From Bisporella sp. PMI_857 (lineage: Eukaryota; Ascomycota; Leotiomycetes; Helotiales; Helotiaceae), in NCBI GenBank assembly GCA_021307315.1, contig JAJSPD010000176.1, positions 1 through 33,560 of the forward strand: a stretch of 33,560 nucleotides of DNA, in the 5' to 3' direction. This document shows positions 1-20,700 of this stretch, piece after piece. The number at the start of each line of letters is the position of its first letter. The first letter of the stretch is position 1. The notes beneath the pieces are model-generated. The model worked only from the letters and a program-made list of their open reading frames with translations, was not told the origin of the DNA and did no database searches. The translations under genes and the position numbers were made by a program.

Positions 1-528
1 TCATGCGAAAGATCAATGTTCAACCCTGTGCACCTGTGAGCTAATTTGGATCTAGGCAACTCCTTACACGACCTACCTAACAATAGTTCATCCCATGCCT
101 CATCTACTTGTGAAGAAGGCGGTCCAGTATATCTGTTCTCGTCTTGGTTTGTGAAGAATCCAGCTTCACCGTTGAGCTCAATTCCTCCAGAGAACGTCTT
201 TTGGATCAAATTGATTTCACTCTTCACCGAGTCTAGAGAATGTCAGCTTTGGTTATGACATCAACCCGTGCAGTGCTCTTCTATGCTTACTTAGGTCCGA
301 TGCGAATCCGTTCTCGTATGATGATTGTGCAACATGATTTGTACCAAACCAAGAAGAAGCTAGCAAAATAACATTAAGCAATATTGAAAGGGAGAGAAGA
401 GCATAAACAAATCGTGGAAGCTTGCTCGTTGACTGAGTCGATACTATGCTCGTGTTTAGGAGGCTCTCTTTCTGTTCATATTCATTTTCATCTGTGCTCA
501 TTTCGTTGGCGTGGGGAATTCCAGACAT
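1..528 (-). CDS. UstYa-family (DUF3328) membrane protein, 3' end outside window
   Basis: UstYa/DUF3328 proteins are single-pass membrane enzymes that carry out oxidative tailoring (for example cyclisation) in fungal RiPP pathways. The model is complement(<1..25, 77..232, 291..528). Exon 1 starts at ATG 528 and encodes a polar N-terminus, a transmembrane segment (about residues 39-60, FVYALLSLSILLNVILLASS) and the family hallmark ENGFASDL. A 58-nt intron (GTAAGC donor, CTGAC branch, CTAG acceptor) leads to an exon with TFSGGIEL and YTGPPSSQVDEAWDELL, the conserved YxGPPSxxVDxAW block. A 51-nt intron then restores frame into GLNIDLSH. The C-terminal HxxHC motifs would lie left of the window, so activity cannot be judged. 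It diverges from the UstYa-like gene at 1025 across a 496-bp intergenic region. Confidence 0.85.
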
Positions 529-1024: not shown

Positions 1025-1738
1025 ATGAAATACGATAAAATTGAGACGATAGAAGACCACGAGCTTCATGAAGAAGTCAACGAAGGTTTCCTTCATTGTG
1101 AAGAAACTTCGTCACCACCCACAACGCAGCTTTCTCGCCCCTTGTTATGGTTCCTTGCCGCTGAACATGCTTTAATTGCTTTCGTTTTCATCATCTCCTG
1201 GAACACATTCGTTCCTCCATCTACAAATCTACAATATCAAGTTCTTACGGCCGACAATAAGTCATATCCCTCGGGTCAACTTTCCTGGTCGCAAAACTTC
1301 GAGGCATTGCCTTGCGGGAAAACCCCCGAGGAAGCGAAAGCACGAGGGTGCCGCTTTGATATGCTCGCAACCGCATGGCTACCACCAAGGTGTATTGATT
1401 ATGAGCTCGTGGATGAATTCATGGAATTGGGCCATTGGCAATTTTATACGGAGATGCATGGGACGACGAAGCATAGCTCGTATGAGCCAGAGCTTCTAGG
1501 ATCCATTTCAGAACCCAGGTCAATATGGACTTCGAGAAGCTGGCACCTCATTCACTGCCTTTATATGTGGAAAAAGATTGGTCGTGCCTTGGTGAAGGGC
1601 ACGCACGTGGATTCTGAAACGGTCTCGGAGCCTCACACGACGCACTGTTTGAAATCTATAGAAGAGGTAGTGTTTGGGACGCATCGTGATCCAAATGAGA
1701 TAGATGATTTCCTGGAAATCATTTATCCACCATGTTGA
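1025..1738 (+). CDS. UstYa-like HxxHC membrane protein, 237 aa
   Basis: The ATG at 1025 is the first methionine of the frame; upstream codons to 983 are open but lack an ATG. The protein has an acidic cytosolic N-terminus, one membrane span (about residues 39-58), then a conserved domain with CGKTPEEAKARGCRFD (97-111), a WLPxRC stretch (118-123) and two histidine motifs, HLIHC (174-178) and HTTHC (204-208). Paired HxxHC motifs behind one N-terminal helix are the signature of UstYa-type proteins, proposed metal-dependent oxidases of ribosomal peptides such as ustiloxin. The CG-x-SxxEAxxxGCxFD block marks the divergent subfamily often annotated as hypothetical. No intron. It lies head-to-head with the canonical UstYa gene at 528 and upstream of a prolyl hydroxylase. 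The family call is firm; the substrate is inferred from context. Confidence 0.75.
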   Translation: MKYDKIETIEDHELHEEVNEGFLHCEETSSPPTTQLSRPLLWFLAAEHALIAFVFIISWNTFVPPSTNLQYQVLTADNKSYPSGQLSWSQNFEALPCGKTPEEAKARGCRFDMLATAWLPPRCIDYELVDEFMELGHWQFYTEMHGTTKHSSYEPELLGSISEPRSIWTSRSWHLIHCLYMWKKIGRALVKGTHVDSETVSEPHTTHCLKSIEEVVFGTHRDPNEIDDFLEIIYPPC

Positions 1739-3023: not shown

Positions 3024-4013
3024 ATGAACATCATGGTGCGTCGTTGCGATTCATTTCAAGAATTCCTGCTGCTTGCTACTCGTTCGCTAACTTTTCTGCT
3101 GGACTCGTAGGACACACGCCTCAAGTGGGCCATTATACTTGTGCCTCTGGCTGCAGTATTGTATAACATCTTAAACATTGGAGAATACGTCTTTAGCATC
3201 GCTGAAAAATATGGCTTATGGGATTCAACTGTCTTGAAGAATGTGCCTGGAAATGTGCCGTTTCAATGCCAGCTTCAACCATATACAATCGAGATTCTCT
3301 CTATCGACGCCTTCATTGTGTACATCAATAATTTTCTCTCAGATGCAGAGATAGACTACCTTTTGGAATGGAGGTGAGATACTCAATAATCTAATGATAG
3401 CCCGGACCAAGTGACTAACATTCTATCATGAAGTGGTAACCGCTTCAACACTGCCTTAACACTTAATGAAGATGGAAAATTGGTCCCCGACCCCAACACA
3501 GCCACATTGGCTGTCACTCTTCTAAGAAGTGACGTGGTTAGTGAGTGTCTCACAAAGCGGATGAAGTCGTTCCTCGGTAATGTTCAGCATATCGACACGG
3601 AGCCAATTCGCATCGTCAAGTACAAAGGAGGAGACAAGATCCCTCTTCATACTGATTGGGTTCCACAGACCAGGAACAAAACATGGAATCCAGCTATGCC
3701 ACACAGACCAAATAATCGGCTTGGAAGTATCTTCGCTTATCTCGAAGATGACTGTGATGGCGGCGAGACTTACTTTCCTAATGTTCAGGGTGTTTCTGAG
3801 GACGCTGATGGGGAAAAGTTCAGTACAACTGAGAGTGGATTTGGATTACTTGTTAAGCCCCGTCGAGGCAATGCTGTTTTCTGGAATAATTTGCACAGCA
3901 ACGGATCTGGTGACTCTCGAACCGCCCATGCTGGCATGCCAGTTAGAAGGGGAACGAAAATTGGAATCAACATTTGGAGCCATTATTTTTTTGATGCTCC
4001 TATGATTGGTTAA
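3024..4013 (+). CDS. Membrane-anchored prolyl 4-hydroxylase-like 2OG-Fe(II) dioxygenase, 284 aa
   Basis: The model is join(3024..3035, 3111..3373, 3434..4013). A 4-codon first exon (M-N-I-M) splices over a 75-nt intron into DTRLKWAIILVPLAAVLYN, giving an N-terminal signal anchor; the second intron is 60 nt. Joined exons keep one frame of 285 codons. The catalytic domain shows the P4H-alpha arrangement: H164-x-D166 in PLHTDWV, a GGETYFPN strand, distal H257 in HAGMPV and the 2-oxoglutarate-binding K267 in GTKIGINIW. This family hydroxylates proline (or other residues) of peptides using Fe(II), O2 and 2-oxoglutarate, usually in the secretory pathway, which fits the signal anchor. The short catalytic domain without a peptide-binding domain is common in fungi. 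It lies 1.5 kb upstream of the Pro-rich microexon precursor, a plausible substrate. Confidence 0.85.
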
Positions 4014-5560: not shown

Positions 5561-6632
5561 ATGAAGTTCCAACTCTTCTTCGTTTCTCTCTTCGCCGTTA
5601 TGGTTGCTGCTGCTATGGAAAAAGTTCCAGTCCGTATTGATACTAGAGTACGTTGCACTTAGCTTTCAACGATATTGATGCTGACTTTTTAGAACGTAAG
5701 GAATCTTAATCTCTAGTCATGAATGCTGTCTGGAAATAGTTCTCTGACATGAAATTATGGATTAGCCTGTAAGTTGTCTCCTGAGATATATCTCCCTACC
5801 TTCTGAATAACAGGTGCTGACATATTATATCTGGTAAAGCAAGTAAGAAATTCTCTCTTCCTACTGAAAATAACTTACTGTAGCCGCTAAAATCATGTGT
5901 AGGGTGTGAGTAGATCCGAAGCTTGAGATGAGATAGCTATCAACTCTAGGTGCTAATGTGGTTGGCGCAATCTAGCCTGTGAGTATACGTTGATTATAAT
6001 ATGGTTATATTCGGAGACAACTGCTAACATAACTTACAAAGGGTGTAAGTTTTACCTTATCAGTATTTGCAAAAGTTACTAAACACATTTGTTGACTTGA
6101 TGGCTCTTATGCAGGCTGTAAGTAGTCTCATCCTCGCAATGAAGTGCTAGCAAGTATATTTACTAATGTTGATATTGCTCCAGCCCGTAAGTAAATCCCA
6201 ATGGTCTAAGTCATTGCTACTGAACAAAGTTGCTAATGTTATGAGCATGATCTAGCCTGTAAGTGTCGCCCGATTCAACATTTACCCCCTCCCCCCCCCC
6301 CCTCCCAACAAAATGAAAACCTGATTGTTAATATTGTGATTTAGCCTGTGAGTACTCCTTAGCTGCAGATCTAAATAGCTGCTACCTACAGACGCTGATG
6401 TAACGATTGTGGTTTAGAGCGTAAGCCTTCACCACATATTGATTATACAAACTTACTAACATGAAGTCACTCAGCCCGTAAGTAGTGTACCCTGCAATTA
6501 ACTTAACTTCAAGCTTTGCTACTAGATATGTTGTTGATATTGGCACGGTTAGAACGTAAGTCCTTTCTCCTTATAAAACGAAGCTACTATTATGTTCAAA
6601 TCTTAATTTTGATATAGGAGGTCGAGTCTTAG
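5561..6632 (+). CDS. Secreted Pro-rich peptide precursor assembled from thirteen 3-nt microexons
   Basis: Exon 1 (5561-5647, 29 codons) encodes a signal peptide, MKFQLFFVSLFAVMVAAA, then MEKVPVRIDTR, and ends at GTACGT. Thirteen exons of exactly 3 nt follow, each in the form AG|NNN|GTRAG: AAC 5693, CCT 5766, CAA 5840, GGT 5903, CCT 5976, GGT 6042, GCT 6115, CCC 6184, CCT 6256, CCT 6345, AGC 6418, CCC 6475, AAC 6553 (first bases). The last exon, 6618-6632, codes EVES and TAG. All introns are phase 0, so the frame never breaks. Intron lengths are 45, 70, 71, 60, 70, 63, 70, 66, 69, 86, 70, 54, 75 and 62 nt; most have a CTRAY branch motif 8-30 nt before the acceptor, weaker in introns 4, 7, 13 and 14. 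The product is 46 aa with core NPQGPGAPPPSPN. This is read from splice signals only. The neighbours (two prolyl hydroxylases, two UstYa-type proteins, a proline-directed peptidase) suggest a RiPP-like precursor. No known family is recognised. Confidence 0.85.
6285..6305 (+). repeat. Poly-C tract in intron 10 of the precursor gene
   Basis: A tract of C residues interrupted by single T bases, including a run of 12, lies in the 86-nt intron before the tenth microexon and explains why that intron is the longest. It is likely length-variable between isolates. Confidence 0.7.
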
Positions 6633-7352: not shown

Positions 7353-9770
7353 TCAGCAGTCTTGCAAGTGTTTCTTGAAGAAACAATCCTGTTTCTGGAT
7401 CACAAAGGGCAGTTCGATTACTTGATGGCTGCCACCTGGTATAAAGACTAAATCAAAATCTTTCCCGGCATCAATAAGAGCTTGTGCTAATCGTAACGTC
7501 GATGTTGGTTCAACATTTATGTCCATCTCGCCTACTACGAGCATTAAGGCACCGCCCAGCTTATGTGCATGAGTTATGTTAGAAGAGTCTTGGTAACTGC
7601 TATCTACTGGAAAGCCCATCCACAGCTCATTCCACCAAAGTTTGTCTATACGGTTGTCGTGGCATCCCGCTAACGCTATCGCTGCTTTGTAAAAGTTGCT
7701 GTGGTGAATCACGGCCGCTGCAGCATTTTGGCCACCAGCTGAGCTTCCATAGCACCCGACACGGGACAAATCCATCCATGGGCGCGTCTCAGCGGCGGCA
7801 TGAATCCATGAAATGCGATCGGGAAAACCAGCGTCTTTTAGATTCTTGTAACAAACGTCATGAAATGCTTTTGACCGCCAATTCGTGCCCATGCCGTCAA
7901 GGCACACTATGATATAGCCTTGATCAGCAATTCGACGAAGCTTGGGAAGGCTTTGGAATGTCTTTGGAGTATAGAAACTTTGAGGACCAGCATAAATGCG
8001 TTCAAGGACGGGATACTTCTTCGAAGCATCAAATTTACTTGGACGAATAATAATGCCATGAATGCTTGCTTGTCCGTCTCGTCCAGGCGCGGTAAAGATT
8101 TCCGGTGGTACCCATCCAGCTTCGAAAAGAGGCTCTAGTTTGCCCTTCTCTAGGAAGACGACTTCTTCCCCAGTTTCGGCGATTCGAACCACTGCCTGAG
8201 GTGAGCAATCGACGCGTGACCAGCTGTCAATGAGAAATCGCTTGCTCGGCCCCCAGCTCCAAGTATGTGTGCCATCGCCTTCCGTAATAATACGCAGACC
8301 TGACCCGTCAAAGTTAACACGAGCTAAGTGAGCATAATATGGGTCTTGCCCTTGCAGCATCCCGAATCCACGAAACCAAATCTGACGGTTGCCCTCGTTA
8401 ATCCACTCGACAGAGCGCATTACCCAGGCCCCCTTCGTAATCTGGTTTTTCAAACTTCCATCCTCGAAATTAATCAGATAAAGATGATTCCATCCATCCC
8501 TTTCACTTGCCCACAGAAGCTCGTTTGTTGATGTCATGATCTTATAATAGACTTTGTGGGCGTAATCAACAAAGGTGGTGCTACTCTCTTCTGCTAGAAT
8601 CGTGACAGTTCCACTCAGACCTATCTCCAGGAGTCGAAAATGTCGATGGCCGCGCTCATTGAATGTAAACCGGTATTTTTTGCTGTCATTTGACCACCCG
8701 ATGTGTGCGAGAGCATATGGATCCCGGAATAAAGCATTGTCAACAAAAATCTCGTGGCAGGTGACCAAGTCAAACAAACGAGGTCTCTGCACCTCTACGT
8801 TGTCTCCCGGGTTGAGGCAAGGCCTACTGCTCAGCTTAGACCGAAGCTGATCCTTCGGAGACGACTCCACCGTATAAACAAGATGCTTGGATGGAGGCTT
8901 ACACTGCCATGCCACTGCATAATGCCCATCCGAGGATAGGTAAAAGTCCTTGAACTCATTATCTGCAAAACCATCATGTGAAACTGCTCTCTCGCTCCCG
9001 TCACAGTTCCTAATCCAGAGGTTGAAATCGCGTACAAAAGCTTTAAGCCCTATACTTGGAGATGTTGCACCCCTTTCAGAATCCGAGTTTTTGCTCAACC
9101 CGTCCGTTTCCCACTTGATGGTAAGACCAAGAGATGATTCCTCAATAACAGCAATAAACGCATTTTCTTTTACCGCACAGGCAATACTCTTTCCAGAATT
9201 TTGAATAGCAAGGCGCCAAATGTGACCGACAAAGGAGCTTTGAGTTACTGTCTGGCCCGCTGATGCTGAACCATAATACTCAGGTGTCCCTTTCTCGTTG
9301 ATCCAGGAGTAGAGGATTCGATTAGCCGTATGATTTCTGAATGTGAGGGAACTCGTTTGGCGCGACAGTGGGGAAGGGACTTCATCGCAACCGCAATCGA
9401 AACCGCCATGGTCGAAATCGCCATGCCATACTTCCAGTTTACCGCTTTTCTCATACTGCCATGTATGCCCATCGAATTGAAAGCGTATCCAGGCAGCATC
9501 TGGCGCCACATTGATCCACGAAAAAGGAAGATTGTCGGGACTGAAGTTTTCCTGTGTGTGCTTACCGAGCTCGGCTGCCAACCTATCATGATCAAATGCC
9601 ACTCGCCGGAGGCCTATGTCGCAGTCTACCAAGATAAACTGCGACTTTCCTAAATCAGGTTCTTGTTTATACCAGAATACGCTACTGCTGTTGGGTAGCC
9701 ATTGTGGGTAGACAATTGCCTGTCGAAGGCAGGCCTTCTCCAAGTCTTGCCACTTGGCATTCGGATCCAT
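7353..9770 (-). CDS. S9 dipeptidyl-peptidase-IV-like serine peptidase, 805 aa
   Basis: A single uninterrupted frame; the ATG at 9770 (MDPNAKW) is preceded only by non-ATG codons. The N-terminal ~550 residues match a DPP IV beta-propeller in character, and the C-terminal alpha/beta-hydrolase carries the catalytic triad: GSSAG around S677, D750 in GEMDINVEP and H782 in GGSHQ. Length and order fit family S9B. These enzymes release X-Pro or X-Ala dipeptides from N-termini. There is no signal peptide or transmembrane helix, unlike secreted or vacuolar DPP IV, so the enzyme is probably cytosolic. It lies next to a gene for a peptide starting N-P and rich in Pro, and diverges from a prolyl hydroxylase, so precursor maturation or turnover is an attractive inference. 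General peptide catabolism is the alternative. Confidence 0.85.
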   Translation of the reverse strand: MDPNAKWQDLEKACLRQAIVYPQWLPNSSSVFWYKQEPDLGKSQFILVDCDIGLRRVAFDHDRLAAELGKHTQENFSPDNLPFSWINVAPDAAWIRFQFDGHTWQYEKSGKLEVWHGDFDHGGFDCGCDEVPSPLSRQTSSLTFRNHTANRILYSWINEKGTPEYYGSASAGQTVTQSSFVGHIWRLAIQNSGKSIACAVKENAFIAVIEESSLGLTIKWETDGLSKNSDSERGATSPSIGLKAFVRDFNLWIRNCDGSERAVSHDGFADNEFKDFYLSSDGHYAVAWQCKPPSKHLVYTVESSPKDQLRSKLSSRPCLNPGDNVEVQRPRLFDLVTCHEIFVDNALFRDPYALAHIGWSNDSKKYRFTFNERGHRHFRLLEIGLSGTVTILAEESSTTFVDYAHKVYYKIMTSTNELLWASERDGWNHLYLINFEDGSLKNQITKGAWVMRSVEWINEGNRQIWFRGFGMLQGQDPYYAHLARVNFDGSGLRIITEGDGTHTWSWGPSKRFLIDSWSRVDCSPQAVVRIAETGEEVVFLEKGKLEPLFEAGWVPPEIFTAPGRDGQASIHGIIIRPSKFDASKKYPVLERIYAGPQSFYTPKTFQSLPKLRRIADQGYIIVCLDGMGTNWRSKAFHDVCYKNLKDAGFPDRISWIHAAAETRPWMDLSRVGCYGSSAGGQNAAAAVIHHSNFYKAAIALAGCHDNRIDKLWWNELWMGFPVDSSYQDSSNITHAHKLGGALMLVVGEMDINVEPTSTLRLAQALIDAGKDFDLVFIPGGSHQVIELPFVIQKQDCFFKKHLQDC

Positions 9771-14297: not shown

Positions 14298-16090
14298 TTA
14301 TAGTGAGGGCTGATAATCTGGTTCAAAGAGGCTTACCCCATCGGTAAGGTAATCTCGTACAATCCGTTGCATTTCATCTCGGATATCATCTATGGCAGAG
14401 ACTTTGAATATATATTAGCAGTTGCAAAATAGTAGAGTTGGGAACCTACCTATGACAAGCATTGTGCCATTTCTCTTATCTAAGCCCTCTAATTCGAGCT
14501 CTTTCTCTTTCTCAGTTTCTGGCTCCCAGTCAACTATGGGAACGAGTTTATTTTCTATATGAAGTTCCCTATCAAATATTGTTTGCAGTGAAGCTTTCCG
14601 TGGATAGACCTTGGCGCGTTTTCCAAAAGGTGTTGTTGGGATGTCTTTACCTTCACAGTATATTGAGATGTTGAGAATCTATCCTCCATCTGTTAGCAAC
14701 AACTCTAAAATTCACGGCTGATTGCTATGCGTACACGTCCATCATCTAATGTGTCCTCATTTAATGCACTGTTTAGCAGCTGTTCGGCAGCTTTTGTAAT
14801 GTCTAAACATGTCAGCTGTTGCGAAGGCAAATGGATGTGATCACCTACCAAGGCTTTGAACTTGCCAAACGAGATGGACTCGACGGGCACGAACCTCACG
14901 AGCATTATAGCCATGAAGAAGTTCTTTTAGATATGGCAAAAGCGCCGCGATGCCAAAGTCACTAGCCACCATAAGAATGTTCTCATACTTATTAATTGGA
15001 GCACTCTTCCCGTGTGGTCCGCTGAAGAAGACCAATGGATCTGTATCTTGCGGTTGCCGAGTCCTCGCATGATATAAAAGGTCTCGGGTGAGGCCTCTTC
15101 GGGGCTGGATGAAGAGATCTAAATGGTTCTGCGGACCCTCTGCCCAGGAGATTACCACGAAGGGATGAGTTTGCAGGAAGGACGGAAAGATAAAGAAAGG
15201 TAGCCAGAGATTTATAGTCTGCCCAGCTTCCATTTCTAAGTCCTTTTGCAGTAGAAGACGGACCCTTACCACACCATACTCCTCTGTAATATGAACCCGC
15301 GCCAGACCGTACCTAAAGAATTCGTCCCTGAAGAGGATGGTAATAACTTGCATGGTTATCATAAAGAGGAACATTCCAATGGAGATATATAAGTAAACCC
15401 TCTTATCGGATGGTATATGTCGCCATATAAAGTATACACTGAGAAATGCTAGAGCCTGATGTGTACGAAGATATAATTCAAACCACGGTCGGCGAAAGAG
15501 TGGGAAAGAAAAAAAAACAACGCTGGAAAGCACTGCTATAGCCTTTGCCTCGTCAGTACTTGTATTATGTGGGTAGATTGCGCACTTACGGTTACCGCAA
15601 ATCGATTCTCGGGTAGGGCTAAAGTGAAGGATGGTTGCGAGGAAAGTGTAATAAGTACGTGGACAAGAGCAAGCAACAGCGAAATCATGCCCATCGATCT
15701 ATGGATCTGTCTAAGCTTGGCGAGAGTCATGCCTAGTAGATCAGCGAGCAAACTGAGGTGAGGCCCGGCGAAGAGTGGCATCAAGTTGATGATTGATAGC
15801 GTACCAGCTCGAAGTCCAGCTTCCGGGATAGTAGAAGCTCGAAAGCTAAAGTCAAATACCCATAAATAGAATGTGTTGCATGCGATATAAATCAGCTGTG
15901 ATATTATCCCGGCTAGGCTCCATGGTCCCAGGAACTGGTGACGATGAATAAAGTAGCGATATCCGAGATGCTTTAACATACGAGAGGAGAGATATTCAAC
16001 GAAAGATGTTAGATAAGGGAGGGTATTGAGAAGGAGGAGGAAGCAGAAGCCACCCCCTATAACAATAGCATATACAAGACTGATATTCAT
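14298..16090 (-). CDS. Ferric reductase / FRE-type NADPH-dependent transmembrane flavocytochrome, 527 aa
   Basis: The model is complement(14298..14389, 14450..14678, 14735..14802, 14849..15542, 15590..16090), four introns of 46-60 nt that all restore frame (528 codons). ATG 16090 was chosen because the open frame beyond it lacks an upstream ATG. The N-terminal half is multi-spanning with four heme-ligand histidines in two pairs, H130/H144 (HRSMG..H) and H195/H209 (THQ..WRH), each 14 apart as in the ferric-reductase domain. HPFVVISW is the FAD-binding HPFxxxS-type motif; FFSGPHGKSAP and the following ILMVASDFGIAALLPYLKEL form the NADPH-binding region. The C-terminus includes PFGKRAKVY and DDIRDEMQRIVRDYL. 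Such enzymes reduce Fe(III) or Cu(II) chelates at a membrane. At 527 aa it is on the short side. No visible disabling change. Confidence 0.8.
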
Positions 16091-16165
16091 GATAGCGACA
16101 GGGCAAGGAGGAAACGCAAGCAGCAAAAGGGAGGAGGGGAAGCTAGAGATATAGACAAGGTGCAC

Positions 16166-17016: not shown

Positions 17017-18513
17017 ATGCCTCCCTTGCTTGGCTCGCTCTTCTATGTCTCACTTCTAGACTTCTTGTTCCCAAGCTTCACCCGCATCTCTACCGCTACT
17101 CAATGGTATCTCAGCATCGACTTGAGCGTTTATACTCCTCTGATCTGCTTCTTTGGCTTGCTTGTGTTCGCTTGCGGGCGTATTTGCAGATACTTGTTCG
17201 GATTGCTTGAGACTTATTGTAGTAAGAACTTATAACTCATTGTCCAAGTAAGAAAACCCGCTTTCTAGAATAAGTAGCTTCAACTATTCATCTTCGATAT
17301 CGCGAGGATGCATATCATATACTTATGTTATGGATATCTTCTCAGAGCTTCGCCCAGAAAGCTCGCTCCTCTCTCGTTACCACCGACTTAGCCTGTATAA
17401 TGAACGCGTCAGGGAATGACTCTTCAAATGGCGGAGATGTAAACAAGAAGACATATTATTACACACTCTGGAATGGACGCTTTTTGATGTGGTATAAGGG
17501 CCGTCCGCTTGTATTTCGGCGCGAAAATCGGGCGGGAGACTTCAGCTGTCGGGAAGAGGTCTCTATTTCATGCTTTAGCAGATCTCCGAAAATTCTAAGG
17601 CAACTGCTGTCCGAGTGCTGCACCGAATATGGTCAGCTTCTTCAGGGCAAAACCTGTCTCTATAAGGATCAAGGTGACAATTGGATAAGGTCTGCCGTGT
17701 CAAATATAAGACGCAGTTCGACAGTTATTCTTGATGAGAGTAGAAAGAGAAGGCTACTGGAAGATATCAAGGACTTCCTCGCTTCAACATCCTAACAGTG
17801 GTATTTCGATCGTGGCATTCCCTACCAACGAGGTTACTTGCTGTACGGGCCACCTGGAACCGGGAAATCTTCTTTTTCTTGCGCGATTGCAGGGGAACTT
17901 AATTTGGATATTTATATCCTTAGCCTTTCGGCCATCAACGAAGCCAACCTGAAGAGCTTATTCAATAAGCTTCCAAGCCGCTGTGTTATACTTTTGGAAG
18001 ATATTGACGCCGTCAGTTCGAACCGAGACGCTGAAACCGAGGATATTCGCCAGATCGTAGGTGGCTCTCCACTCCGAAAGAAAAAGCCTGCGTCAGGAAA
18101 TGTGTCCTTATCTGCTCTGTTGAACGTCATCGATGGCATAGGGTCACAAGACGGCCGAATCCTGGTCATGACAACCAATTTTATAACACATCTTCATAAA
18201 GCTCTTATACGTCCTGGCCGCATAGACATAAAGGTCGAGTTCGGGCTTGCGGACAAGAAAATGGCGGCAGACATCTTCCGTCTCATCTTCAAGCCACTGG
18301 AAGCTGGGCTTGGTAAAGAGGCAGAAGTTGAGCAGCAGTTTGCTGTAAAAGTGCCTGAGCTGAAATTCAGTCCGGCTGAGATCCAGTCATTCCTACTGGT
18401 CAATAAGCGATCGCCTTGTCTAGCAGTGGCCAATGTAGATCAGTGGATCACAACTGGAGCATCCGAGAGCGCTACGTCAAGTGTGCTTGGAGATGCTCTG
18501 CCTGAGATGCATA
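17017..18513 (+). pseudogene. BCS1-type AAA ATPase, broken by an in-frame stop and a transposon
   Basis: BCS1-family proteins are membrane-anchored AAA ATPases (the founding member translocates the Rieske protein in mitochondria; fungi have many paralogues). Exon 1 (17017-17221) encodes an N-terminal hydrophobic segment; a 56-nt intron (17222-17277, donor GTAAGA) splices in frame into STIHLRYREDAYHILMLW, typical of the BCS1 N-domain. WYKGRPLVFRREN follows, then Walker A GPPGTGKSS (about 17845-17870), Walker B CVILLEDIDAV, and TTNF...RPGRID with the arginine region. A TAA at 17793-17795 sits where the family has a residue in DIKDFL...QWYFDRGIPY, with frame intact on both sides, so it is one nonsense change. 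The C-terminal end is cut by the Fot1 element at 18514. Probably non-functional. Confidence 0.8.
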
Positions 18514-20700
18514 ACCGATATCCCTGTTCAAAACCCCACCCTAACCAAAACCGCATGTGATCTACCAAACTAATCAATCACAAAACAATTAATAATAAAT
18601 CAACCACAAATTGTATTGTATTGAAAATAGGCTCATTTGATTCAGAAAAACTTGTTCTATTATTACTCCAAAGGAAAAGCTCATGTATAGCGTGAAGGGC
18701 GCTTGATTTCTCTTCCAGCTCGATTGCGCGTAACCATTCCCGATGTAGCTTCTACCTCCTCCACTGCTTGAATAGGTGCTTTGATTAGTGATTCTGAAGT
18801 AGTAGAAGCTTTAACAGAAGATTTTTGAAGGTTTGGCATCTCAGAAGAAGCTAGAATAGGTGCAGGAGCTATAGAAACCAGCTCCTTAGCAGGTGTTTTT
18901 GATCGCAGAGAATTCTGGCTCATATTCTCTTTCCGCAACTGAGATTCAGCAAGCTTAGCTTGCTTCTCTTCTGCTTTTTGCTCTTTCATTGCTTTATTAG
19001 TAGCAATACGAACCTTTCGATCAAGTTTAGCTTGTTCTATTCCTTGTTGTTCTTCTTCTTTTTGGGCTTGATAGTCAAGAGCTTTGGCGACTTTAGTAGG
19101 TGACCATATTGTAGTTCCAGTATTAGGCTCGCTACTTAAATCAAGCTTTCCACCCCTTTTTCGCTTTGCCTTTTCAGTAATAAGTGCTTGTAAAAGGCCT
19201 TGATTCACATGCTCTGCAATATCAGCTCGTGTAGTGGCGATATGTAAGCCTTTCAACAGTTTTGATATGTATTCGATACCGAGATTCTGTGTAGCTAATT
19301 TCTCAGCTGCACGTATTGCTCTTGTATTTGTAGGTGTTCGAATCATATTGATTGCTTTTTCGGCTTGTATTGTCTTCTTGCGAGTGACAATAGGAATCAA
19401 TTTGGATCGATCGATCGGCCAAATACCAGGTTTCTCAAAGGCATGAAGGATATTCTTTTCAGTAAATACTTCATCAAAAGCACTTTTGAATACTTTGAAG
19501 AACAATCTTTTTGTAATAGTAGTAAAGCCTGAGCTTTCTGCAATAATCTTATCGATTCTTACAGAGTACGCCGTAGCAAGAGGACCGAACAAACCAACAT
19601 CAAGAGGTTGCAATCTATGCGTAGAATGTGGTGGCAAAACCAATACAATAATGCGAGCTTGATTAGCCCATTTGATAAATTCGAGATTCACATGGCTAGA
19701 ATGGCCATCTACTATCAATAGACGTTTCGCTCGCAAATCAGCTGGCCGAGTATGTCGATCGAACACGTGCTTCAACCATTCTAAGCCCATCATATTACTA
19801 CTCCAGCCATTTTCGGAAGAGCTGAAATAAGTATTCGAATCCTTATCAACGTCTTGAACCCAACTAGTTCGAAGTTCGTGATTGGTTCCTTTGTAAATTA
19901 AGAGAGAAGGAATAGCGTGGCCACTTGCGGAAACACAGGCTACGCAAGTAATAAATTCTCGATTGCCGTCTTGACGATTTCGCATGCCTTGAAGCTTATT
20001 TGTAGCTTCAATACTCATGACTCTTTTAGACATTTGGCCGATGCCTATAAGGAATCCTTTCTCATCAACATTATATATATTTTCGGGTATAATGTTGTGT
20101 TTTTCGATTGCGTGGTGCATCTAAGAAATGCAACTAATCAGCCTCTTAAATAACATAAAAATTAATATTTAATCAACCACAAATTAAATTAACTTACATG
20201 GTCATAAAATAAGTTAAATAGAGTTTCATTTTCAGCTGCTACTCTTTTATTGTCGATATTGCGCAGATAGGCCGATCTAAGTTCAGTCGAATGCCTGCGT
20301 ACAAATCCTCCAACCCAGTTCTTTCCTACAGGCTGGCCACGTAGCTCTTCTGCAAGGTTTTTGACGATTCTAGCTGTTGGAGGCATTTGGCGCAGGCTTA
20401 AATAATTGATCCTATCAACCAAAACTTGCTCTGCAGCAGCTGTAAGGCACTGGTGTGTTTTCGAGTTCGCAACAGCTTTATGTTCTGTAATTCCCTTCAT
20501 TCTATTCCTGATCGACGTAGGGTCCACTCCAAAAGCTTTTGCTGCCTGGTTAGCATTCTTATGCCTCCCTGATTCGATAGAACCAATCGCCTTGTCAATA
20601 GCACTCGATTTGCTGTAGATAGCCATTTTTGAAGTTGTTGTGTGATCATTCATTAGTGTGCGGTTTTGGTTAGGGTGGGGTTTTGGTGCGGGACCTCGGT
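18514..20700 (-). mobile_element. Fot1/pogo-type DNA transposon, 2187 bp, apparently intact
   Basis: Terminal inverted repeats of about 42 bp bound the element: the inner 27 bp (18529-18555 and 20659-20685) are perfect inverse copies with core ACCCCACCCTAACC, and the outer part matches with six differences (ACCGA..TCCC). A TA dinucleotide lies at each end (18512-18513, 20701-20702), the expected target duplication. It carries one transposase gene on minus and lies in the 3' part of the BCS1-like gene. Normal base composition and intact reading frames suggest recent insertion. Confidence 0.9.
18681..20653 (-). CDS. Fot1/pogo-family transposase, 631 aa
   Basis: The model is complement(18681..20120, 20198..20653). 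A 77-nt intron (GTAAGT donor, TTAG acceptor) joins FNLFYDH to MHHAIEKHNI in frame. The N-terminal ~60 residues form a psq-type helix-turn-helix (NANQAAKAFGVDPTSIRNRM), followed by a CENP-B-like DNA-binding part (about 70-135, with VGGFVRRH). The DDE domain has D171 in NVDEKGF, D290 in IVDGHSSH and D326 in LQPLDVGLFGP, the DD35D spacing of pogo-like enzymes. The C-terminal 200 residues are Lys/Glu/Ala-rich, probably coiled coil, ending KRPSRYT. No internal stop or frameshift, so it may be active. Confidence 0.9.

Follow-up and report, generated by a model that had tools for sequence, protein, structure and literature searches.

Gene content of the contig

The window described here is one whole contig of 33,560 nucleotides from Bisporella sp. 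PMI_857 (Helotiales), and the genome examined alongside it comprised 55.6 Mb in 284 contigs. The features considered in this analysis are the following.

1..528, minus strand: UstYa-like protein 1 (UstYa 1), a fragment, with the contig end inside the gene; Pfam 23.4 bits against a cut-off of 25
1025..1738, plus strand: possible UstYa-like protein 2 (UstYa 2), marked by two HxxHC motifs only; Pfam E 0.23, under the cut-off
3024..4013, plus strand: prolyl 4-hydroxylase 1 (P4H 1), PF13640, with an N-terminal hydrophobic stretch; two introns placed by eye
5561..5647, plus strand: exon 1 of the array gene, signal-peptide-like start and leader, MKFQLFFVSLFAVMVAAAMEKVPVRIDTR; signal peptide assigned by eye from a hydrophobic run
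5693..6555, plus strand: thirteen predicted single-codon exons and the introns between them, AAC CCT CAA GGT CCT GGT GCT CCC CCT CCT AGC CCC AAC, encoding NPQGPGAPPPSPN
6618..6632, plus strand: terminal exon of the array gene, EVES-stop
7353..9770, minus strand: S9 (DPPIV-like) peptidase with a match to the VHL beta domain at residues 137-199 of its protein, P0001
10117..11046, plus strand: prolyl 4-hydroxylase 2 (P4H 2), PF13640; one intron placed by eye

The array gene is flanked by P4H 1 upstream and, 3.5 kb downstream, by P4H 2, and the PF13640 matches of both pass the Pfam cut-off. P4H 1 and a Bisporella sp. PMI_857 protein of 281 aa at NCBI are 100% identical, the NCBI model (P0002) apparently starting at the ATG at 3033. 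Alignment of P4H 1 with the P4H structure 2jig (E 7.6e-15) places H, D, H and K in register; we take these to be the catalytic residues (HxD...H...K), a pattern that in P4H 2 was seen by eye only. A protein search with P4H 1 returned 72 proteins at E <=0.001, the first being P4H 1 itself, and included sequences from Fusarium, Beauveria, Xylaria, Nemania and Colletotrichum; no P4H relatives were found in viral contigs.

The S9 peptidase gene sits between the array gene and P4H 2 on the opposite strand. Its VHL domain scores 23 bits in Pfam against a cut-off of 21 and matches human VHL chains by phmmer with a best E of 0.0078. In the alignment to human VHL, all five of the residues W88, Y98, S111, H115 and W117, which presumably form the hydroxyproline pocket, are retained. 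The putative VHL domain of this peptidase is likely of the hydroxyproline-binding type, and a DPPIV paralogue on contig C209 of the same genome gave no VHL match.

UstYa 1 aligns with the N-terminal, UstYa half of Sarocladium strictum P0009 (42% over 114 aa, BLAST E 3e-27) and with Beauveria asiatica P0005 (47% over 64 aa). UstYa 2, identified from HxxHC motifs that we assume to be those of UstYa proteins, gave no BLAST match to P0009 and no Pfam match at E 0.001. Both P0005 and P0009 are annotated as a single UstYa+P4H protein, the P4H being the C-terminal half of P0009, and may be genuine fusions or pairs of neighbouring genes that gene prediction has merged. UstYa and P4H genes of this type thus adjoin or are fused in at least two other fungi. 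Pfam identified no tyrosinase-type or other cyclising partner among 15 distinct frames and proteins of the window, a set in which spliced genes are partly modelled and which is bounded by the contig end inside UstYa 1. Further along the window, 14841-16165 and 17325-18560 hold pieces resembling ferric reductases, of which one is under the Pfam cut-off, and an AAA ATPase of BCS1 type, and a DDE_1 transposase with a weak Tc5-type DNA-binding match under cut-off marks transposon remains at 18681-20653. No RNA gene was found in the window at Rfam gathering cut-offs, and no tRNA was found. As judged from gene content, the array gene, the P4Hs, the S9/VHL peptidase and one or two UstYa-like genes likely form a RiPP-type cluster acting on a proline core.

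Layout of the array gene

A first-pass annotation had proposed that 5561-6632 holds thirteen consecutive one-codon exons, each of the form AG/NNN/GTRAG, and we located all thirteen where it had placed them, with 3-nt exons starting at 5693, 5766, 5840, 5903, 5976, 6042, 6115, 6184, 6256, 6345, 6418, 6475 and 6553. Every site fits the stricter pattern [CTA]AG/NNN/GTRAG; the acceptors are TAG (8), CAG (3) and AAG (2), and the donors are GTRAG in 13/13. The 14 predicted introns of the gene are all GT-AG, 45-86 nt long and in phase 0. The longest, intron 10 (86 nt), contains a run of C bases at approximately 6290-6305. A branch-like motif, YTRAY, occurs somewhere in 13 of the 14 introns, with GCTAAAA in its place in intron 4; in 11 of the 12 introns separating microexons it falls within the last 30 nt. 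In-silico joining of the exons yields a 141-nt CDS in one continuous frame, MKFQLFFVSLFAVMVAAAMEKVPVRIDTR-NPQGPGAPPPSPN-EVES-stop, with the core decoded exactly as in the first-pass annotation. The predicted precursor has 46 residues and a single core containing six prolines.

Retention of any single intron introduces a stop inside the kept intron (14/14), and without splicing the frame stays open for 33 codons. Joining 5647 directly to 6618, with the array skipped whole, keeps the frame and gives a 102-nt sequence encoding MKFQLFFVSLFAVMVAAAMEKVPVRIDTREVES. By computation, the 8192 possible include/skip subsets of the thirteen exons all keep the frame and encode 2383 different core strings, counting the empty one. 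The decoded precursor contains no Kex2-type KR or RR, and none flanks the core, which is also free of Tyr and Phe. Pfam assigned the 46-aa precursor to no family at E up to 10, hence without a NACHT or ANK domain match. A search of the protein database recovered no homologue of the precursor and no candidate with three 5-residue words in common. The core may bear some resemblance to plant CLE-type peptides.

That such an array would hardly arise by chance, as had been argued, is borne out by dinucleotide shuffling. At intron-like spacing, 3-nt sites formed a chain of 13 in the window, and in 400 shuffles of it the longest chain was between 1 and 3 (1 in 364, 2 in 35 and 3 in a single shuffle). 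For exon lengths of 0-2 and 4-18 nt, the longest chain on either strand of the window was 1. The shuffles rule out chance or a reading-frame artefact as the source of the window array. A tandem-repeat origin was also considered and is unsupported: the introns have a mean similarity of 0.596, hardly above the 0.577 of shuffled introns, and Tandem Repeats Finder reported nothing at the array. Some intron pairs do stand out (n=91, mean z 1.0, top z 4.7), and short direct repeats of 12-37 nt fall into seven families.

Longer arrays elsewhere in the genome

A genome-wide pattern search for codon exons gave 95 matches, compared with 32 for a reversed control pattern, and 82 of the 95 fell in four arrays (39 on C258, 30 on C226, 12 on C269 and one on C86). 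The search consisted of a few exact short patterns, and other arrays may exist. Three arrays are longer than that of the window.

C258:148500-158500, minus strand: HET (PF06985) gene with 60 consecutive 3-nt exon sites at 64-75 nt spacing
C269:177000-185000, plus strand: HET (PF06985) gene with 40 counted 3-nt exon sites, after a 6-nt exon
C226:28500-38000, minus strand: ULD_2 (PF22893) gene followed by an array of 51 3-nt exon sites

These counts were made with relaxed donors, four kinds of non-GTRAG donor each occurring at one or two sites, and the C269 figure excludes the two leading members of a 42-site chain, these being in competition with the start exons ATGGAG and GAGGAG. The C258 and C269 arrays lead into HET-domain proteins, whereas the C226 array comes after the ULD_2 protein. 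On C258 the array follows a proline-rich first exon with a GC donor, seen by eye. The C226 array has three introns enlarged to 339-444 nt, one GC donor and one 147-nt gap that is possibly an unrecognised unit. It spells a charged, coiled-coil-like stretch with a transposase-like frame, seen by eye, beyond it, and the end of this gene was not found within the 9.5 kb examined. At 44.8 kb on C258 (C258:44000-46000), an ankyrin-repeat gene shows two similar introns around the 3-nt sites TAT and CGT followed by an apparent insertion; this may be an array that is either young or broken.

None of the 164 codon-exons (60 + 40 + 51, and 13 in the window) is a stop, whereas position-wise base shuffles (n=2000) produced 4.8 stops on average and none in 0.15% of trials. 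Mean intron similarity is 0.78 on C258, 0.72 on C269 and 0.88 on C226, compared with 0.62-0.64 for shuffled introns. This likeness holds at all separations on C258 and C226 and drops with distance from 0.78 to 0.69 on C269. Base agreement between the codons themselves is only 0.31, 0.34 and 0.45 on C258, C269 and C226, respectively. For intron pairs with a similarity of 95% or above, the codon is equal in 8% of 12 pairs on C269, 35% of 40 pairs on C226 and both of two pairs on C258. The codon is the position that varies most, between a fixed AG and GT, which is not expected of a freely drifting repeat.

Searches with the C258 and C269 units found matches in their own arrays only (26 and 11), a genome search with the window array matched only itself, and a sequence model of unit pairs gave nine matches, all in the window array, when scanned over the window and six other loci. 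The paralogous P4H loci, 16 kb on each of C112 and C252, had 3-nt chains of 1 at most, and no array was found within 1.5 kb of 30 of the 75 UstYa matches. The counts for the P4H and UstYa families are lower bounds, since the genes of the window itself escaped those searches. Over 212,499 bases of loci, with overlaps counted twice and loci overlapping the window excluded, the longest 3-nt chain was 2; by locus-strand (n=108), the longest chain was 2 in two, 1 in 57 and 0 in 49.

Homologous proteins bear on the coding status of the C269 array. A search with residues 1-200 of the C269 protein recovered two relatives, P0075 from Xylaria bambusicola and P0074. Ahead of the large exon, P0075 has RLKLQRRIEAVRDGLE where the C269 array encodes RLKYGLNDRIETVKTGLE. 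Within this, array-encoded LNDRIETVKTGLE and LQRRIEAVRDGLE of P0075 are identical at 8/13 positions, in a match that ends exactly at the large-exon junction. A score as high was reached in 4/200,000 shuffles when anchored at the junction; the match is weaker without that anchor (98/20,000 shuffles), and it takes in only the last 18 of the 40 counted codons. P0074 is the closer HET homologue (63% identity across the 153 residues that follow the junction) and is annotated with an unrelated 15 residues at its start in place of the array-encoded stretch, which neither helps nor settles the question of array coding. Peptides of the C258 and C226 arrays gave local scores of 27-32 against P0074 and P0075, below the C269 score of 38.

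Interpretation and comparison with known systems

Reading the gene through thirteen single-codon exons, as the first-pass annotation had done, remains the best reading in the light of the three longer arrays, the lack of stops in all four and the homologue match to part of the C269 array. We consider it probable that 5561-6632 encodes a secreted peptide precursor with a proline-rich core of 13 residues, which is spliced from thirteen single-codon exons and then hydroxylated by both cluster P4Hs. Following the signal peptide, MEKVPVRIDTR would serve as leader, NPQGPGAPPPSPN as core and EVES as tail. The P4Hs, with UstYa-type oxidases, would modify prolines of the core, and recognition or trimming of hydroxyproline peptides would fall to the VHL-bearing S9 peptidase. 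Hydroxylation of the core is our best guess because six prolines are encoded beside two P4H genes and a peptidase with a reader apparently of the hydroxyproline type; the +16 Da mass steps hinted at in the first-pass annotation would fit the two P4Hs flanking the gene. Released with exactly these ends, the unmodified core would have an [M+H]+ of 1229.5909, to which each hydroxylated proline, six at most, would add 15.9949.

Splicing of such a gene may not require the exons to be seen at all. Short fungal introns with strong donors would be recognised and removed as units, which would spare the spliceosome from detecting the 3-nt exons. Were introns removed in 5'-to-3' order, the exon upstream would lengthen by one codon at each step, and a normal exon would then flank the next GTRAG donor. 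Each removal would make a 3-nt exon the tail of a normal one, so that no step would require recognition of a lone 3-nt exon. The third codon base is G in 17 of the 164 codon-exons and in none of the 13 in the window, and because it is so rarely G, U1 pairing would rest on the intron side, GTRAGT. As for the origin of the arrays, every one of the three longer arrays has a distinct family of alike introns together with unlike codons, which suggests that intron-plus-codon units may multiply or be homogenised locally in Bisporella sp. PMI_857. This idea rests on those three arrays because the window introns have no clear overall kinship.

The array might instead be mostly skipped from 5647 to 6618, the 3-nt exons being included rarely or never. 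Such skipping would preserve the frame, and very short exons are generally difficult under exon definition, but the near-consensus splice signals at all 13 exons and the lack of stops argue against it, as do the position of a proline-rich core next to two prolyl hydroxylases and the agreement of the last array-encoded residues of the C269 HET gene with a homologue; we regard it as unlikely. We think it most improbable that the arrays are decayed or non-coding tandem repeats that mimic splice sites. The units with near-identical introns on C258, C269 and C226 and the enlarged C226 introns would fit that explanation. It is opposed by a 3-nt position that varies while its AG and GTRAG flanks hardly do, by the complete lack of stops, by the homologous protein matching C269 array residues and, in the window, by introns no more alike on average than shuffled and by the silence of Tandem Repeats Finder.

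A different question is what becomes of the peptide. Tyrosine or phenylalanine is the usual cross-link partner in dikaritins, and the proline- and glycine-rich core has no aromatic residue for a dikaritin-type cross-link; the two P4Hs also pass the Pfam cut-off where the UstYa assignments do not. Both observations would suit a peptide that is secreted, rich in hydroxyproline and active in signalling or in the cell wall, instead of a cyclised RiPP; the UstYa genes would then have another role. In two fungi, however, UstYa and P4H are so close as to be annotated as one protein (P0005, P0009), and we hold this alternative to be possible but the less probable one. The P4Hs of the window could also act on another substrate.

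The first-pass annotation had also suggested that no fungal gene made of an unbroken run of 3-nt exons has been described, and this is not supported. According to three papers, the NACHT-ANK (nank) genes of Tuber melanosporum contain dozens of 3-bp mini-exons, or tens of codon-sized microexons, that are alternatively spliced (PMC3689799, PMC4986451, PMC9815663, citing Iotti et al. 2012). As far as those descriptions go, both ascomycetes share many codon-sized exons, which here are consecutive and in phase 0, and in both they occur in genes of nonself-recognition type, the Bisporella arrays lying in HET and ULD_2 genes and two units in an ankyrin gene. Unlike the nank genes so described, the window gene would encode a small secreted precursor in a biosynthetic-type cluster, without NACHT or ANK. 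Alternative splicing of mini-exons is a feature reported for nank; in the window gene, skipping of 3-nt exons would keep the frame.

In dikaritin RiPP clusters of the ustiloxin, phomopsin and asperipin types, UstYa-family oxidases are described beside a secreted-precursor gene (PMC12048977). The window resembles these clusters in having a UstYa homologue (UstYa 1) near a predicted secreted precursor. It differs in that this precursor has neither repeated cores between KR sites nor an aromatic core residue, and in its two P4Hs, its VHL-bearing S9 peptidase and its codon-by-codon exon layout. Aphid effector families have miniature exons behind a signal-peptide exon (PMC7495047), as do the bicycle genes (PMC9168663); like the window gene, these code for secreted proteins and have a tail of very small exons after the part for the signal peptide, but they belong to insects and, by description, apparently have no unbroken run of 3-nt exons. 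Fungal introner-like elements are many near-identical introns with copies in unrelated genes (PMC4457414); near-identical introns also occur on C258 and C269, where the unit families are confined to their own arrays. A 1-nt exon in Fusarium CYP621A (PMC12940212) and a microexon in Trichoderma Xlr2 (PMC11121469) are very short too, but occur, as described, once per gene and in no unbroken run. Among the literature matches listed, covering titles, the starts of abstracts and few subscription journals, none described a 3-nt exon array in a peptide precursor, RiPP cluster, HET or ULD_2 gene. New here is the predicted peptide precursor built of 3-nt exons, together with the HET/ULD_2 arrays; mini-exon arrays as such are known from Tuber.

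Runs of 3-nt exons likely escape ordinary gene finders and read aligners, and because of this the gene class is probably missed in many fungal genomes. Such a run would hide a whole peptide precursor and leave a biosynthetic cluster seemingly without a substrate. The arrays also offer a direct test of the smallest exon that the spliceosome can join many times in succession, and a possible route for proteins to grow or change one residue at a time. More speculatively, and with the odds in our view against it, inclusion and skipping of single-codon exons might yield more than 2000 in-frame core variants decorated by the hydroxylases and oxidases, an RNA-level combinatorial RiPP, with intron-plus-codon arrays remodelling recognition and secreted proteins residue by residue. 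The window array would then be a possible source of ribosomal peptide libraries. That arrays occur in HET, ULD_2 and ankyrin genes, and in NACHT genes of Tuber, suggests that fungal recognition proteins are diversified by a recurrent mechanism.
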